Shown one piece after another: positions 3,705 to 37,855 of a stretch of 41,297 nucleotides of DNA; positions within the stretch are counted from its first letter, which is position 1; each line of letters starts with the position of its first letter. Origin of the DNA: a virus; the IMG/VR virus record IMGVR_UViG_3300025161_000014, positions 1-41,297 of that record. The stretch is one strand, 5' to 3'. Both the position numbers and the translations under genes were made by a program. Under the pieces are notes generated by a model. It made no database searches. It worked only from the letters and a program-made list of their open reading frames with translations, and was not told the origin of the DNA.

Positions 3705-4940
3705 ATGCACAGAGCAGAAACTATTGTGCTCAAGCTGCGCAACCCCGGAGCAGGCAAGCGGCGCTGGCTTGACCAGACCGCTGAACGCTTCCGCCAGGGG
3801 ACGCAGTTGGGGCTTGACTATGCTCTGAGCAACAAAACCTCGAACAGGGGGAAGATCCATGCCGCCACCTACCCAAACATTCGCACTCTGGGGTTGCCTT
3901 CTGACTACTGCCGCATGGCGGTCAACCAGGCTGTACAGCTTGCACGGAGCCATTTCGGGCTGCGCAAGAGCAAACGCAAGGTGGGCAAGCCCACAGTGGT
4001 TCGCAGCCAGGGCATAGGGCTGGGGGTCAACGCTTACAAGGTCGTTGGCACCACCCTGCGGCTGTCCACCGGGCGAAAGGGAGAATACCTCTGGCTTCCC
4101 CTCTGCGTCCCCACAAAGTGGCGGGAACGACTTCGGTGGGTCAAAGGAGATGCTCGGCTGTTCAGGAGGGGCAATGACTGGTTCGTGATGCTGCCCCTGC
4201 GCGTACCCCACACCCCTACCGTCCGTGACGGGCACGGTGAACCCACCGTGATTGGGGTAGACCTGGGTATCGTTCGGTTGGCCACAGCCAAGCACCCCAA
4301 TGGCCTTTTTGTCGCCAATGGTAAACCCATCCGCCACCGCCGGGAGCGCTTCGCTGCTCTGAGAGGCCGCTACCAGCGCCACCGCCGCACCGACCAGGTG
4401 CGGGCTCAAAAGGGCAAAGAGCGTCGCTGGATGACTGACCTGAACCACAAGGTCAGCCGTCAACTGCTCAACCTGGCCCTTCAGTACCCCAACCCGGTGC
4501 TGGCTTTCGAGCAACTCGACGGCATCCGGGATCGGGTGAGAGGGAGCAAACGTTTCAACCGCATGGTCTCCAGCTGGGCCTTCCGGCAACTGGTGGACTT
4601 CGTGCAGTACAAGGCCGAGAAAGCGGGTGTTCGGGTTGTGTTCGTAGACCCCCGCAAGACCAGCCGTACCTGCCCGAGGTGCGGCCATGCCACCCGGGCC
4701 AACCGACCCGAGCAGAGCCACTTCCGATGTGTGGCCTGCGGCTACCAGGGCAATGCAGACGTGGTAGCGAGTCTGAACATCGCTGGCGTAGCGGCTGGAC
4801 TGCTGCGTCAAGGGCCGTCTGACACGGCCCGTTTGGGGCAACCCAAACAGGCTGCTCCCGGCGGGGAGCGGCTGGATGGAGTGAAGGTAGGAGGGCAGCA
4901 ATGCTCGCATACAGACTCCAACCTCGAAAGTTCCGCTTAG
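3705..4940 (+). CDS. tnpB: TnpB RNA-guided endonuclease
   Basis: A 411-residue TnpB of normal length. All catalytic parts are present: RuvC-I in GVDLG (Asp about 186), RuvC-II in AFEQLDGIRDRV (Glu about 269), a zinc ribbon CPRCG...CVACG (Cys about 323, 326, 342, 345) and RuvC-III in GNADVVAS (Asp about 352). The N-terminal half carries the helical recognition region. The ATG at 3705 is preferred to the in-frame codon at 3675 because a leaderless promoter stands before it. Known TnpB proteins cut DNA next to a short target-adjacent motif under guidance of an RNA from the element's right end, and keep the element in place after transposon excision. It needs a Y1 transposase from elsewhere to move. 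Confidence 0.95.
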   Translation: MHRAETIVLKLRNPGAGKRRWLDQTAERFRQGTQLGLDYALSNKTSNRGKIHAATYPNIRTLGLPSDYCRMAVNQAVQLARSHFGLRKSKRKVGKPTVVRSQGIGLGVNAYKVVGTTLRLSTGRKGEYLWLPLCVPTKWRERLRWVKGDARLFRRGNDWFVMLPLRVPHTPTVRDGHGEPTVIGVDLGIVRLATAKHPNGLFVANGKPIRHRRERFAALRGRYQRHRRTDQVRAQKGKERRWMTDLNHKVSRQLLNLALQYPNPVLAFEQLDGIRDRVRGSKRFNRMVSSWAFRQLVDFVQYKAEKAGVRVVFVDPRKTSRTCPRCGHATRANRPEQSHFRCVACGYQGNADVVASLNIAGVAAGLLRQGPSDTARLGQPKQAAPGGERLDGVKVGGQQCSHTDSNLESSA

Positions 4941-9344: not shown

Positions 9345-9629
9345 TCAGGATGTTTTGCGGTTCAAAAGGTCACTGACAAGGGCATTCCAGCCCTCGAGGG
9401 TACGCTTGTCGGCTTTGTGCATGGTCAACAGAATGCCCTGCACCCCTACGGGCACGGCAACGCTCTCAAGGTAGGCGGTCAGGGCGATGGGCTCCCCGCT
9501 GGCCTCGGCCTGGGACAGTAGCAGTTCCACCAGTTCGGCCTTGCTCTGGTTGTCAACCTCAAGCCCCCTGGCCTTTGCCAGCGTGATCAGTTCGGCCTTT
9601 GTTTTGGCCTCGAGTTCGGCTCTTTCCAT
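9345..9629 (-). CDS. Rho-N/SAP-like small protein
   Basis: A 94-residue protein whose first 40 residues (KAELITLAKARGLEV, then KAELVELLLSQ) form the helix-extended-helix of Rho N-terminal and SAP-type domains, which bind nucleic acid. The rest is helical and unrecognised. A similar helix-extended-helix occurs twice in the head gene at 23152-23700. Start ATG at 9629, six bases after TATACT (leaderless). It lies just upstream of the sheath gene, where tail completion genes are common. Confidence 0.65.
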   Translation of the reverse strand: MERAELEAKTKAELITLAKARGLEVDNQSKAELVELLLSQAEASGEPIALTAYLESVAVPVGVQGILLTMHKADKRTLEGWNALVSDLLNRKTS

Positions 9630-9883
9630 GCTTCGAGTATACCGTCAAGCAGGGTGGGGGTTGTAGCTCGTATGCGCTTGAACGGGCTGCGCCCCCCCTG
9701 GTGGGTGATGTCCACCATGCCGCAATAGTTCAGCTCGCGCAACGCCTTCTTGACGGTGTTGGTGGCGAGGCCGGTTATCTCCGCTACCTGGGCCTGGGTG
9801 GGTTCGCCCTCAATGCACACACAGACCAGAACGCGCACGGCTTCAGGAGATAGGGTTTTGAGTGCCTGCCGGATGGTTCGCAT
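9587..9883 (-). CDS. Winged-helix transcription regulator
   Basis: A 98-residue protein with a winged helix-turn-helix. Residues about 12-65 show helix (SPEAVRVLVCVCIEG), turn-helix (TQAQVAEITGL) and recognition helix (ATNTVKKALRELNYCG), then a wing (MVDITHQGGRSPFKR). It resembles MarR/replication-type wHTH proteins and the N-terminal part of the initiator at 29854. It starts 24 bases from the divergent portal gene and so is placed to control both the portal and the leftward tail genes. A weak TAGCAA box stands six bases before the ATG. Confidence 0.75.
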   Translation of the reverse strand: MRTIRQALKTLSPEAVRVLVCVCIEGEPTQAQVAEITGLATNTVKKALRELNYCGMVDITHQGGRSPFKRIRATTPTLLDGILEAWKEPNSRPKQRPN

Positions 9884-29661: not shown

Positions 29662-29708
29662 ATTATAGGGTTTACAATGTTGACACACCGGATGTAGCAA
29701 CTCATAAT
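29662..29708. promoter_or_regulatory. Divergent promoters of the replication module
   Basis: Rightward: TTGACA (29680-29685), 17 bases, CATAAT (29703-29708), a near-ideal promoter for the gene at 29729 and the initiator. Leftward: TATAAT (29667-29662) reading into 29655. The two overlap face to face, so a repressor here would switch both directions. Confidence 0.7.
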
Positions 29709-29728: not shown

Positions 29729-29860
29729 GTGAAAACAATCATCGGCAATGTGTGGACTTTTTTGATCGCCTGGCTGTTGGCGCTGGGCATACTGGGTATG
29801 GTCTTTGACAAAGGCGCACCTGTTTGCAATAAGCAGGTGCGCCTTCCTTCGGGGTGGTGA
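29729..29860 (+). CDS. 43-residue membrane protein
   Basis: GTG start at 29729 with AAGGGGG ahead. Residues 8-26 (VWTFLIAWLLALGILGMVF) form one membrane helix, followed by a short polar tail with one Cys. Its stop overlaps the start of the initiator gene. It is the first gene after the strong rightward promoter. Role unknown; small membrane proteins at this place can be superinfection-exclusion or lysis-control proteins, which is a guess. Confidence 0.6.
   Translation: MKTIIGNVWTFLIAWLLALGILGMVFDKGAPVCNKQVRLPSGW
29811..29845. repeat. Perfect 12-bp inverted repeat
   Basis: AAGGCGCACCTG and CAGGTGCGCCTT with an 11-base loop lie in the 3' end of the 43-residue gene, nine bases before the initiator's start. 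No T run follows. In RNA it would form a hairpin that could limit access to the initiator start. Confidence 0.6.
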
Positions 29861-30909
29861 GCGTGATTCCATCGGGTTTGAGACGATTCCTTTCAGAGCT
29901 ACCTAGCAATGCTGGGTGGCTTTTTTTGGCTATGGTAGATAGCCCTGAGCCGATGACCCGGGCAGACATGGCGGCTGAGTTTCAGGGCCATGCCTTTCCT
30001 GAGTCGGCAGTACGGCGGGCCTTGCAGGTTCTGGTAGAGCGGGGCTTGGTCAGGGTGGTGGGTGAAAAACCACTGCGGTATGTGGCCGATACTACAATCG
30101 TAAAAAGTTACGATACACCATCGAGCATCGTAAAAAATTACGATTATCCTTCTCATGAAGAAGAGAGCATCGTAAAAATTTACGAAACTCCCCAAGAGAG
30201 TATCGTAAAAATTTACGAACCCACAGAACAAAGTCCAGTGCGCGAAAATGACACCTTCGTAACTTTTTACGAACAGCCGCAACAGCAAAGCATCGTAAAA
30301 ATTTACGAAACTCCACAGCCAGAGCCGGGCATCGTAAAAATTTACGAAACTCAGGAAAATGCGCCGGGCGCGGCAAACGGTGAAGTCGTAAAAAATTACG
30401 AACAACCGGCAAAAGATGAGGAAATGGTTAGAAACGACAATTGTTTAATTACTAAATTAAATTCTCTTAAGCAAGAGGATAATTTTTTGGAGGGGTGTGG
30501 GGAACCTTTTTTGCTTCCGTCGCCTGAACCCAAACCCAAAGCCTTTGACCTCGCCGACTATGCGGCGGCGTATAACCGGTTCAAGGCGTCTACCATGCCC
30601 GCCTGCCAAACCAAGGACGCCTCGGGATTCCGCAAAAAGAAGCTACAAGCACTTTTGAAGCACTACTCGCACGAGACTTTGATACAAATGATTGAGCAGG
30701 GCACGGCGTACATGGCCGCTGACGGCTTCCTGAGCGGACGCGAAAACGGCAAGGCTTTTGGATTCGATACGCTTTTGCGGCATCTCGAGGACTACTCAGA
30801 ACGCGGCGCTGCCCTCATCAAACGGCGTGGCGGCATACCGGCCAACAGCACTCAAGCCTCTGAAATGCTCTCGCCCTACTCCACAAAGGTGTCCAGTTAT
30901 GCAGATTGA
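29854..30909 (+). CDS. Replication initiator with iteron-encoded linker
   Basis: A 351-residue replication initiator, like lambda O in build. Residues about 10-75 form a winged helix (SNAGWLFLAMVDSPEPMTRADM... with ALQVLVERGLVRVVG). Residues about 82-183 are a linker in which the motif IVK(I/N/S)YE is repeated eight times; the DNA of each repeat is a palindrome. Residues about 225-340 are a helical C-terminal domain (FDLADYAAAYNRFKAS, LLKHYSHETLIQMIEQG) like those of DnaD/primosome-type or helicase-loader-binding domains. Start GTG at 29854 (29857 and 29863 possible). The next but one gene is a DnaC-like loader. Expected role: bind the iterons, open DNA, and recruit the loader with helicase. 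Confidence 0.8.
   Translation: MVSVIPSGLRRFLSELPSNAGWLFLAMVDSPEPMTRADMAAEFQGHAFPESAVRRALQVLVERGLVRVVGEKPLRYVADTTIVKSYDTPSSIVKNYDYPSHEEESIVKIYETPQESIVKIYEPTEQSPVRENDTFVTFYEQPQQQSIVKIYETPQPEPGIVKIYETQENAPGAANGEVVKNYEQPAKDEEMVRNDNCLITKLNSLKQEDNFLEGCGEPFLLPSPEPKPKAFDLADYAAAYNRFKASTMPACQTKDASGFRKKKLQALLKHYSHETLIQMIEQGTAYMAADGFLSGRENGKAFGFDTLLRHLEDYSERGAALIKRRGGIPANSTQASEMLSPYSTKVSSYAD
30097..30402. repeat. Eight palindromic iterons; likely replication origin
   Basis: Eight copies of TCGTAA-N4-TTACGA, at 30097, 30127, 30169, 30202, 30256, 30292, 30331 and 30385 (18 bases each with flanks). All eight keep both 6-base arms exactly. At 30256 the codons differ (the peptide is FVTFYE instead of IVKIYE) yet the palindrome is kept, which shows selection on the DNA. 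They lie inside the initiator gene before an A+T-rich stretch, as in the lambda origin. Confidence 0.85.
30417..30490. other. A+T-rich stretch next to the iterons (likely unwinding region)
   Basis: From about 30430 to 30490 the sequence is mostly A and T (TTTAATTACTAAATTAAATT and TAATTTTTT), sharply unlike its surroundings. It follows the last iteron by about 30 bases inside the same gene. In lambda such a stretch next to the iterons is where the strands first open. Confidence 0.65.
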
Positions 30910-31216
30910 AGCGCGTCACGTCTGGCTTCTGGCGGGCTATCCAGTGGCCTATACCCCTGCTGGTCTGGTCTTTTATGGCCCCCCTAGCCTCAACCACTTT
31001 TGTTATCGGTATGCGGTTCTGTTGGGCAAATACCTGGGTAGCGTCCCTGTCCACTACAGCGAGCTATCAGACGACTTCCAAGCCGATTTGCACCGGGCGG
31101 TCATTCTCGCTATCTGGGATAAGCCCAACTACCTCGAACGCCCCTGGCTCGAGGCTTCGCAGGTGGTCAAGCAGGCTCTTGATAGCGTGATTGACAACGT
31201 AAAGGTAGTGCGTTAG
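30899..31216 (+). CDS. Hypothetical protein between initiator and loader
   Basis: A 105-residue protein starting MQIEARHVWLLAG at the ATG at 30899, which overlaps the end of the initiator gene; AAAGGTG stands before it. Aromatic-rich first half (PSLNHFCYRYAVLLGKYLG) and a helical second half. Not recognised. Position inside the initiator-loader operon suggests a helper in replication. Confidence 0.55.
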   Translation: MQIEARHVWLLAGYPVAYTPAGLVFYGPPSLNHFCYRYAVLLGKYLGSVPVHYSELSDDFQADLHRAVILAIWDKPNYLERPWLEASQVVKQALDSVIDNVKVVR

Positions 31217-31226
31217 GCTACACCCT

Positions 31227-32051
31227 ATGGATGAGTTACAGGAAATACTCGCCCAAATCAAGGCGAGAGTCAAACCTGCCGAAATTGACCCCGCGCTCCC
31301 AAAGTGCCCCCTGTGCGGCGCGGGCGGCCTGGTCGGTCATTATGAATCGGCCTTCAGCCTCCGGCACGACTGTGACTGTGAGGCCGAACGCACCCAAGAG
31401 TACCTGCGTGGCCTGAGCCACCTTTGGAATGTCCAGCAAAGTCTCAAGGCTTTTGTTGGACAGCTACCGGCGCTGTACAAAAGCGTTGGGTTTGACAGCG
31501 TGCCCAAAGGTCTCAAGTCCAACAATCCGGGCCTGTTCACGGCCTTGCAGCGCCTATCTCAGAAGCCTCGAGAAATCGGGATACTCTACCTTTGGGGCAA
31601 CGCTGGGGTGGGTAAAACCACCCTGGCGATTTGCGTGGGCCGTGCCATGTGTGAATCCGGTCTGCGGGTGGGGTTCTGGAATGAAGGGGCCTGGTACGGC
31701 GCGATGGCTGAAGCTGACCGTACACGGTACAGCCCCAACCCCGCCCCCTTCCCTGACCTAACCCGCTACGATGCCCTAATTCTGGATGACCTTGCAAGCA
31801 TGGTGGCAACCGCACGGGCATCCAGGGATGATGTGCGGGCGCTGCGCGAGTTTTACAGGGTGCTCGAGCACTACTACGTCGAGCGCAAGCCCCTGATCAT
31901 AACCAGCCAGTTTGACCCTGGCGTAGCGGCGCAAAAAGTGGCCTATGCCGATTCGGTGGATGCGGCTATGCGCTGGGCTTCGAGGCTTGCGTCAGGCAGG
32001 GTGTTTCAGGTGACGGCTCCCCGCGACTACAGGCTGCAACCGGAGGTGTGA
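31227..32051 (+). CDS. DnaC-like helicase loader
   Basis: A 274-residue AAA+ ATPase of the DnaC/IstB group. An N-terminal zinc-ribbon-like part (CPLCG...CDCEAER, about 27-54) precedes the ATPase: Walker A GNAGVGKTT (about 124-132), Walker B LILDDL (about 184-189), and a sensor Ser/Gln region IITSQFD (about 225). Such proteins load the replicative helicase at the origin. ATG at 31227 stands seven bases behind TAGGCT, with no ribosome site. Next to the iteron initiator it completes an initiation unit; the helicase itself would come from the host. Confidence 0.9.
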   Translation: MDELQEILAQIKARVKPAEIDPALPKCPLCGAGGLVGHYESAFSLRHDCDCEAERTQEYLRGLSHLWNVQQSLKAFVGQLPALYKSVGFDSVPKGLKSNNPGLFTALQRLSQKPREIGILYLWGNAGVGKTTLAICVGRAMCESGLRVGFWNEGAWYGAMAEADRTRYSPNPAPFPDLTRYDALILDDLASMVATARASRDDVRALREFYRVLEHYYVERKPLIITSQFDPGVAAQKVAYADSVDAAMRWASRLASGRVFQVTAPRDYRLQPEV

Positions 32052-32053
32052 AC

Positions 32054-32476
32054 ATGATTGACAAGGCAACAATGGGGCAGGAGCTTCGCAGGATCAGGAA
32101 AAACCTGAACCTGTCAATAAAAAAGGCCGCATACTCCACTGGTCTGAGCGTGCCGCTCATCTCCGACATTGAGCGGGGGCGCACATGGCCGTCCTACGCA
32201 ACCCTGTTCAAGCTGGCAAAACTGTATGGCGTAGCTCCAAGTCAAATCATTCGAGCAGTAGAGGAAGAAAGCGTTGAACGGTCTTACAGCCTGCCCCTCG
32301 CGCCTGGGGTGCGTGAGCTGGCAGACATGCCAAACATCTGTGAAATTTTTGGCATTACCGCTCAGGACTTGAACGACCTGAACAAAATCAGATTGAGCGG
32401 TAAAGGTTTCCAGAGCTTTCACCAGGCTGTAGCGGCGTTTCTGATACTCAAAGGAGTGACGTATGGAAGTAGATAA
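32054..32476 (+). CDS. XRE-family transcription regulator
   Basis: A 140-residue protein with a classic XRE helix-turn-helix at residues 7-62 (LRRIRKNLNLSIKKAAYSTG, LSVPLISDIERGRTWPSY, LFKLAKLYGV). The C-terminal half has a second small helical domain (EIFGITAQDLNDLNKIRLSG) with no protease motif. Start ATG at 32054 behind GGAGGTG. It overlaps the clamp gene that follows. Candidates for its target are the divergent promoter region 29656-29728 and the operator-like repeat at 2203-2222. Confidence 0.9.
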   Translation: MIDKATMGQELRRIRKNLNLSIKKAAYSTGLSVPLISDIERGRTWPSYATLFKLAKLYGVAPSQIIRAVEEESVERSYSLPLAPGVRELADMPNICEIFGITAQDLNDLNKIRLSGKGFQSFHQAVAAFLILKGVTYGSR

Positions 32477-33560
32477 ATCCGAACTGGTCAAAGTCCTTAA
32501 CGTGGTCAAGCGTGTAGCACCGACTAGAGCCTCAAACCCGATAATGACTCAGGTGCGGCTTACCGGAACCAATGACGATCTGACCCTGACCGCCTTCAAC
32601 GGTGAAGTGTTCTACAGGGGGGTTGTCCCCGCAAGCGTGGGGGCCATTTTTGACACGCTTGTACCTGCACACAAGCTCATCGAGTTAGTGAGTAACCTAA
32701 AAAGCGATAGCATTTTCATCGAACTCGAGAATAACGAGATGCTATTTGCGGCGGGCAGGCAACTGGCAAAACTGACCACGATGCAAGCAAGCGATTATCC
32801 CGAATTTGTTTTTGAACCATACGAACAGGGGGCGCAAATCAAAGCTAAAGACCTGCACGATGGGTTGGACTCGGTTGCCTACTGCTGCGCCACTGACGAC
32901 TTTCGCGGGATTTTTCGCGGTGTGTTGTTGAAAACGCACGACGGGCTTATTGTTTTTGCCGCCTCAGACGGCTACAGGTTCGCCGAAAAAAAGATGGCCT
33001 ACGATAGCCACATACCTTCTGTGGTCATCCCGAAAAGAAATCTTGCCTTTATCACAACCGTACTCAACCTGTGCGGGCCTGAAAACATGGTAGCGGCGGG
33101 CTATGCACATGGCCGCTTCACCGTTTCGGGGAAAAACCATACCATTCAGGTTGCCACCCTCGACGGCAATGACTTTCCTAACTACGAAAAAATCATTCCT
33201 CAGGACAGCAATGTTATTTTGCGCTTTGACAGACGGGCGCTAATGGATGCGTTCAAAATGATGGGCATTTTTGCCGCTGGTGATACAAGGCCCACGAGGA
33301 TCGAGGTGAGCGGTAAAACGATGGTTCTAACATCCCGTGGCGATTACGGCGAGTCCAGCGACGTGGTGATACTGGAGGATGAGGTTGAAAAGCCGTTCTC
33401 CTTCCACATCTCGGCGGCCTACATGCAAGACGCTCTCAACCAGGTTTCCGCTGAGGGTCTACAATGGGCGCTGACTGTAGAGGGTGAAACAGCAAAAAAG
33501 CCTACGCTGCTGACTGATTCGGCGGGCAACCTTGCCGTAGTCGTGCCTTTGGTGGTGTGA
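32463..33560 (+). CDS. dnaN: DNA polymerase III sliding clamp (beta)
   Basis: A 365-residue beta clamp, full length. Three repeated domains are seen: MEVDKSELVKVLNVVKRVAP at the start, RGIFRGVLLKTHDGLIVFAASDGYRFA in the second domain and MVLTSRGDYGESSDVVI in the third, ending in VVPLVV in place of the usual MPLRL/MPMRL tail. The clamp encircles DNA and holds polymerase on it. A phage-borne clamp beside the loader suggests it redirects the host polymerase. ATG at 32463 with AAGGAG site. Confidence 0.93.
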   Translation: MEVDKSELVKVLNVVKRVAPTRASNPIMTQVRLTGTNDDLTLTAFNGEVFYRGVVPASVGAIFDTLVPAHKLIELVSNLKSDSIFIELENNEMLFAAGRQLAKLTTMQASDYPEFVFEPYEQGAQIKAKDLHDGLDSVAYCCATDDFRGIFRGVLLKTHDGLIVFAASDGYRFAEKKMAYDSHIPSVVIPKRNLAFITTVLNLCGPENMVAAGYAHGRFTVSGKNHTIQVATLDGNDFPNYEKIIPQDSNVILRFDRRALMDAFKMMGIFAAGDTRPTRIEVSGKTMVLTSRGDYGESSDVVILEDEVEKPFSFHISAAYMQDALNQVSAEGLQWALTVEGETAKKPTLLTDSAGNLAVVVPLVV

Positions 33561-36778: not shown

Positions 36779-37855
36779 ATGAGAGTGATGGTGGTGGCGG
36801 TTTTATTGCTCACCTGCTGCGCCCTGGCGCAAAAGGGCGTGGTGGGGCCGGTGGGTATTGAGTACCTTGACCTCAAAATCAACTATCAGGTTGACCCCGT
36901 TGACGGTCTGGGAAAGGTAACGCTGACCCTGACCGATGGCTCGGTGCGGGTCTGCCGGTTCATGTACGGCGATCCGGATACCGATAAAGACGGCAAAACA
37001 ACTTTCCGGCAAAGCGAACCGCTCACTCGAGGGGACGCAAGTCTAATTCTCCAGCGGGCCTTACCGTGCTTGCTGGATGCCCTGCTCGAGCAGGCACGGT
37101 TATTGACCCCTGTAGCGGGCTCCCCTGGCCCCCAAGGGCCTGTAGGCCCCCAGGGTGAGCCTGGGCCGCCTGGCCCAAGGGGAGAGGCCGGGCCTCCTGG
37201 CCCTGCGGGTGTAACCCCGCAACTGGAAATCGGGACAATAACCATGCTCCCACCTGGGACTGCCCCCCGTGCTTACCTAACCGGCACACCCGAGAGGCCG
37301 GTTTTGAATCTGGAAATACCTGCTGCCCCCCCTGGCCCCCAAGGGCCTGTAGGCCCCCAGGGTGAGCCTGGGCCGCCTGGCCCAAGGGGAGAGGCCGGGC
37401 CTCCTGGCCCCCCCGCCTCAGTGACCGCTACAGTGGCTCCTGAGCCGTTTACGGCCAAGCCCTGGCGGGTGGGTGTCTCGGCCAACTACACCCCCAACCT
37501 GAGCACCCTGAGCCTCCAGGGGTCAATCTGCCATGATGCCCTGCTCGTGCCTGGGGTGGGCCTCTGTGCCCGCCTCGAGTCCGGCAACCTGGCCCCTCTG
37601 GGCCGTGACTACGCCCTGGTGCTGGCGGGCGCGGGCCTGCTTCAAACCCCTCTTGGTGCGCTGTATCTACAGCCGGGCCTTGGCTATGCCCTGGGCGCTA
37701 CCAGTGGCCTGCATACGTTCGTGCAAGTCCTGGTAGGGGTTGAGGTGGCCCTCGAGCCCCTTATCCTCTTTGCTGAGGCCTCGACCAATCTCTACATCGA
37801 ACGTCCCGAGGGTCTTGGAAAGCTGGCCCTGGGTGTGCGTTATCGTTGGAGGTAG
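36779..37855 (+). CDS. Exported collagen-like protein with beta-barrel-like C-terminus
   Basis: A 358-residue protein. A signal peptide (hydrophobic [16 protein letters not shown]) is followed by a small N-terminal domain (to about 110), a first collagen-type Gly-X-Y run (about 115-142), a linker domain (about 145-180), a second Gly-X-Y run (about 184-211) and a C-terminal beta part (about 230-358) with alternating strands ending GVRYRWR, as in small outer-membrane barrels. The two collagen runs are coded by an 82-base direct repeat. ATG at 36779 with AAGGAGG. Export suggests a surface protein made in the host (lysogenic conversion) rather than a virion fibre. Confidence 0.7.
37122..37203 (+). 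repeat. 82-bp direct repeat, copy 1
   Basis: Identical to 37329-37410, 207 bases apart, both in frame. It codes for the Gly-X-Y collagen run [17 protein letters not shown] and onward. The perfect identity, including third positions, points to recent duplication or gene conversion. Confidence 0.85.
37329..37410 (+). repeat. 82-bp direct repeat, copy 2
   Basis: Second copy of 37122-37203. Recombination between the copies would remove 69 codons in frame and leave one collagen run. Confidence 0.85.

Follow-up and report, generated by a model that had tools for sequence, protein, structure and literature searches.

A putative replication initiator gene of this phage apparently carries the phage's own origin of replication. 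Eight exact copies of a 16-bp palindrome lie in the middle of the gene and are followed by the least stable DNA of the window (the whole stretch of DNA analysed, one virus record 41,297 bases long in which no end repeats were found), with a gene for a DnaC/IstB-like helicase loader one gene further on. We put at roughly 85% the probability that the locus works like a lambda-type origin embedded in its own initiator gene. The proposal of the first-pass annotation that the initiator gene holds its own origin is thus well supported, because the anatomy (iterons, a melting minimum or unwinding element, a loader gene) and the comparison with Thermus phages both agree with it; initiator binding, melting, helicase loading and origin activity are what we infer. 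Cumulative GC skew, which had been proposed as a check, has its minimum near 23 kb and leaves 30 kb unmarked, and is uninformative here.

The phage is a myophage, with a tail sheath, a portal and a major head protein recognised among its genes. Over its full length the tail sheath shares 44% identity with those of the Thermus phages Lalka27a, Lalka8, and Lalka27b, which ties the phage to the Lalka group, and 32% with those of Cumys and phiMa. The best annotated phage matches of the beta clamp, by coverage and identity, are again the Lalka phages (27%), and a helicase gene of the window matches a Thermus thermophilus plasmid protein (36% identity). Given that tail sheath, clamp, and helicase matches all point to Thermus phages or a Thermus plasmid, a host of the Thermus/Meiothermus type is a reasonable supposition. 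Two further repeat features were observed in the window: the 6-bp palindrome CTCGAG is strongly over-represented (106 occurrences vs about 13 expected from base composition), and a tail-fibre protein with collagen-like repeats is encoded at 36779-37855 by DNA with 27-bp repeats.

Array, melting element, and replication genes

The features of the locus are as follows.

29680..29708, + strand: promoter-like TTGACA-N17-CATAAT, 11/12 consensus (shuffles give 1.3 ± 1.2 such sites)
29854..30909, + strand: putative replication initiator gene, 351 aa, with a winged helix and a weak phrog_345 match; the start could be GTG 29863
30098..30401, unstranded: array of eight palindromic iterons TCGTAA-N4-TTACGA, 16 bp each, exact matches, starting at 30098, 30128, 30170, 30203, 30257, 30293, 30332, and 30386
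30257..30272, - strand: iteron 5, inverted, TCGTAACTTTTTACGA, coding for FVTFYE; exact reverse complement of iteron 1
30411..30490, unstranded: likely DNA unwinding element, the least stable 80-bp stretch of the window, 74% A+T
30899..31216, + strand: small gene between initiator and loader, 105 aa, no Pfam or PHROG match
31227..32051, + strand: DnaC/IstB-like helicase loader (phrog_50, E 1.1e-12; Pfam IstB_IS21, E 1.3e-5, above cut-off)
32048-32476: Cro/CI-type helix-turn-helix (HTH) protein, between loader and beta clamp
32463..33560, + strand: DNA polymerase III beta clamp (TIGR00663 above cut-off; phrog_947, E 8e-58)

The array is unique in the window. The first-pass annotation had described eight such palindromes with invariant arms in mid-gene, and both their number and their exactness stand, perfect 6-bp arms being found in eight of eight iterons; of the range that it gave, 30097-30490, the first base needs correction, since the first site begins at 30098 and not at 30097. 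No further copy with up to two mismatches occurs outside the array in the 41,297 bases; at up to three mismatches shuffles give 7.5 ± 2.6 sites and the window 17, of which all nine outside the array carry exactly three. Across the whole window the array is also the sole cluster of at least three identical 6-bp-arm palindromes with the same gap per 600 bp, and the sole cluster of at least four identical 10-mers per 600 bp. At their centres the iterons are rich in A (AAAG, AAAA, AAAT; CTTT in the inverted iteron 5), while the spacers between iterons differ greatly in length and sequence. Start-to-start spacings are irregular (30, 42, 33, 54, 36, 39, and 54 bp) and without significant helical phasing (p 0.41).

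The A+T-rich stretch reported after the iterons is present, and no part of the window is less stable. Duplex stability was calculated from nearest-neighbour stacking energies in windows of 40, 60, and 80 bp; over the whole 41,297 bases the least stable 40-mer begins at 30446, the 60-mer at 30428, and the 80-mer at 30411, so that at all three sizes the minimum begins 10 to 45 bp past the last iteron, on its 3' side. The same calculation on lambda, used as a control, recovers the known A+T-rich region: its second-deepest minimum in 2.4 kb falls immediately after iteron 4.

The product of the open reading frame 29854-30909 is probably a replication initiator, as far as modelling and profile matches can tell. 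Its predicted layout comprises a winged helix (about residues 7-78), an iteron-encoded linker (about 80-185), and a helical C-terminal domain (about 230-350). For residues 1-82, AF2 run without an alignment predicts a wing of two strands together with three helices and a recognition-helix candidate (50-62); mean pLDDT is 78 in the best of five models and 50-57 in the others. Foldseek matches the predicted domain to winged-helix DNA-binding proteins (top 2d1h, E 7e-4), and a Pfam scan gives weak HTH matches. Thus, the N-terminal winged helix named in the first-pass annotation is supported as a prediction. The full-length protein, modelled without relatives, folds poorly (pLDDT 37). The match to phrog_345, "replication initiation O-like", is weak (E 7e-4, residues 38-309), and a genome search with that profile at E<=1e-3 did not regain the initiator and matched another small ORF; a small ORF at 9587-9883 on the - strand weakly resembles phrog_345 in its winged-helix portion (E 4.9e-4). 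Searches for sequence homologues of the initiator in phages, plasmids, and viral contigs found none, nor was a relative found by way of initiator, clamp, and loader searches.

The initiator, loader, HTH, and beta clamp genes form a replication module. The DnaC-like loader, which had been noticed one gene past the initiator, is supported as a prediction by its phrog_50 match; a phage DnaB was not found among the window genes scanned. Judged by its sequence, the promoter-like element at 29680..29708 could drive transcription through the origin and the replication genes. At 29895-29923 on the + strand, within the opening codons of the initiator gene, lies an intrinsic-terminator-like hairpin (13 pairs, then a T run) that could be an attenuator. 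Just upstream of the initiator start, a near-perfect inverted repeat with 15-nt arms and a 5-nt loop (29811-29845) is located at the end of a small ORF (about 29729-29860) for a possible membrane peptide.

Palindromic arrays in Thermus phages

The new point, a small one, is that related Thermus phages share this arrangement but with unrelated palindromes. The Lalka phages, which were reached via the beta clamp and not via the repeats, carry exact GTGCA-N5-TGCAC palindromes in their O-like gene: eight in Lalka27b (PQ109077; L121), 11 in Lalka27a (PQ109076), and eight in Lalka8 (PQ109075). These palindromes stand directly after the winged helix, are mostly 21 bp apart (21-23), and fall in two frames; in the 16-kb locus, duplex stability over 40 and 60 bp is lowest directly after the array. 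In Lalka27b the first six sites code for GAPDAP-like peptides and the last two, in the other frame, for VHEVHQ and VHVVHP, and the winged helix of its O-like protein is recognised by HTH_36 (E 1.2e-13) and by phrog_391, "replication initiation O-like" (E 2.6e-17). The likeness to the window thus extends to a winged helix, palindromes, and then the least stable DNA inside an O-like gene, to a beta clamp, and to a myophage particle. The Lalka phages differ in having their own DnaB-like helicase and a primase adjacent, and no DnaC-like loader there; their sites also differ from TCGTAA-N4-TTACGA in sequence and are regularly spaced in two frames, whereas those of the window are irregularly spaced in one. 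The annotation of the Lalka gene deserves a remark: in Lalka27b (L121:4305-5648) the frame with the winged helix begins at 4305, the annotated start is an internal GTG at 4713 within the array, and a spurious 43-aa CDS (4582-4713) is annotated over the array; the O-like genes of L125 and L126 are mis-annotated in the same way. In those parts of the Lalka description (PMC11437467) returned by term searches palindromes are absent, and the mentions of origins or repeats are unrelated to the array.

Two further Thermus phages resemble the window in having, in a replication initiation gene, a winged helix, a palindromic array, and then low-stability DNA. In phiMa (MH673674) six GGTCAAC-N3-GTTGACC-like sites in three frames precede the stability minimum of the locus; in Cumys (PQ109079) a degenerate GTGCA array of about five sites in two frames precedes the third least stable place. 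A virus contig reached via the loader (L122) carries five 23-bp repeats that are direct and not palindromic; they occupy three frames and are followed immediately by low-stability DNA. A winged-helix initiator-like gene (L118:11344-12285, in IMGVR_UViG_3300049434_000028; phrog_270, E 2e-7) has three sites of the GTCGTCACCCGTGACGAC type, placed in two frames, and the stability minimum of the locus follows them directly; having been found by the palindrome search itself, this locus is used for the frame argument only. The layout is common but not universal, since other O-like genes have weaker palindromic arrays or none: those of Klebsiella and Shigella contain weaker, 15-bp-spaced repeats, and in PseuP_224, BS46, and MT839380 no palindromic array was found in the gene stretch examined. 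Pattern scans for paired palindromes in viral and genome contigs returned mostly chance matches or unrelated repeat arrays. Separately, chromosomal arrays of at least eight regularly spaced TCGTNA-type palindromes (for example, TCGTGAATTTTCACGA at intervals of about 40 bp) were observed in L053 and L082 (both Cytobacillus oceanisediminis) and in L031 (Peribacillus); a motif screen of these arrays found no IVKxY-type peptide in any frame.

DNA sites, encoded peptides, and alternative roles

All spacings being divisible by three, the eight iterons fall in one frame of the initiator gene and code for a repeated peptide: IVKSYD, IVKNYD, IVKIYE (four times), FVTFYE, and VVKNYE, in which the Val and Tyr positions are invariant. 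It is conceivable, although in our view unlikely, that the locus is dual coding, the eight IVKxY(D/E) copies in the linker forming a docking motif for the loader, helicase, or clamp superimposed on the iteron array; were this the case, protein and DNA repeats would evolve together.

A regulatory role, in which the palindromes are operators bound by the initiator or by the Cro/CI-type protein (32048-32476) and control transcription of the replication genes, the origin lying elsewhere, would suit the 16-bp length, a typical operator size, the frequent binding of repressors to palindromes, and the presence of a Cro/CI-type gene two genes on. We consider it quite improbable: the eight copies are in mid-gene and not at a promoter, no copy with up to two mismatches exists at any promoter or elsewhere in the window, the array adjoins the melting minimum, and related phages carry different palindromes at the same position of their O-like genes.

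Selection on the peptide itself is a further alternative, under which IVKxY(D/E) would act as a multivalent docking motif (for the clamp, helicase, or loader) and codon choice would have produced the palindrome incidentally. The window locus taken alone is compatible with it, because all eight copies share one frame, with Val and Tyr invariant at the same positions. Yet the shared frame is weak evidence, as it is explained by duplication within a gene, which must keep the frame, and by the stop codon TAA that the palindrome reads in one frame. Moreover, nearly all palindromes are lost on synonymous recoding: against the eight observed, at most four sites were regained in 50,000 draws from the codon usage of the window, at most five with the gene's own codon usage, and at most five in 20,000 within-gene synonymous permutations, these nulls taking the iterons as independent, so that duplication could lower their effective number, though the spacers are very different. 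The iteron that had been singled out earlier for coding a different peptide while keeping the palindrome is iteron 5, in which F-T-F replaces I-K-I and both arms are unchanged. The palindromes are thus conserved beyond what the protein requires. The first-pass annotation had also proposed an alignment with related phages as a test; homologues of the initiator were not found, and on analogues the palindrome persists while frame and peptide change. The arrays of the Lalka phages, phiMa, Cumys, L118, and L122 span two or three frames and code for unrelated peptides, and in the related Thermus phages it is the DNA site that stays constant and the peptide that varies. Two matches of an IVRxYE peptide screen (L115 and L119) were rejected as out-of-frame readings of a low-complexity NREKIRER repeat. 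Peptide selection as the sole cause of the array is accordingly very unlikely.

Finally, palindrome arrays also occur at parS-type sites, but it is extremely improbable that the array serves a phage-plasmid for partition (as a centromere-like site) or incompatibility, instead of or besides acting as an origin: no ParA/ParB family match was found among about 30 window proteins scanned, and the array sits within what is probably an initiator gene, next to the melting minimum and a loader gene.

Proposed mechanism and comparison with known origins

Under the origin reading, the origin would, as in lambda, lie in the middle of the initiator gene, where the linker is encoded. Each 16-bp palindrome would be bound by an initiator dimer through the N-terminal winged helix and, by analogy with lambda, several dimers may bend and wrap the DNA of the array and so help to melt 30411-30490. 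The DnaC-like loader would then put the host DnaB helicase onto the opened strands, and the host polymerase would extend using the phage's beta clamp. The IVKxY(D/E) repeat would simply be the DNA sites read through a flexible linker.

Such an assignment supplies a precisely placed origin, open to experiment, in a phage of Thermus/Meiothermus type. It also suggests that the design known from lambda has turned up repeatedly in phages that each use a different palindrome and between whose initiators no sequence similarity is detected; these matched initiator/site pairs may be well suited to studying how the specificity of a winged-helix initiator and that of the sites embedded in its gene change together. 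The origins could, in addition, seed replicons for thermophile vectors.

The plasmid origins of the iteron type (RepA/RepE/pi) provide one comparison: they have direct, monomer-bound, helix-phased repeats, whereas the window sites are palindromic, one of them inverted, and unphased with irregular spacing, so in repeat symmetry and phasing the locus does not fit this type. The closer model is lambda, where the origin lies in O, O dimers bind nearly perfect 19-bp inverted repeats, and an adjoining 40-bp A+T-rich region opens (PMC5043065). The first-pass annotation had taken the symmetric site as a departure from lambda, a difference that falls away given the near-perfect symmetry of the lambda iterons (PMC5043065). 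Its other contrast, twice the iteron number, is correct (eight vs four) but not exceptional, with six iterons in Stx phages (PMC7466680) and 8, 11, and 8 palindromes in the Lalka phages. Differences of detail remain. Iterons in lambda (four) and in the Stx phages (six) are 18-19 bp long and spaced by 20-24 bp, vs eight of 16 bp spaced by 30-54 bp in the window; the lambda loader is P and that of the window DnaC-like. Lambda O belongs to Pfam Phage_rep_O and matches it and phrog_277 clearly (5.7e-36 and 1.2e-152), whereas the window initiator matches neither; BLASTP against lambda O is not significant, and no BLAST or profile similarity links the initiator to lambda O or to the Lalka O proteins. 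Its sequence would thus place the initiator outside the lambda O protein family. The anatomy is nonetheless that of lambda and of the Stx phages P27 and 933W, in which the origin sits in the O gene, inverted-repeat iterons are followed by an A+T-rich stretch, and the loader gene P lies downstream; the window likewise has iterons in a predicted initiator CDS, in the form of inverted repeats, with an adjoining A+T-rich stretch and a loader gene downstream in the same direction. Overall, the general picture of phage replication is unchanged, and the locus would add a further example of a known design.
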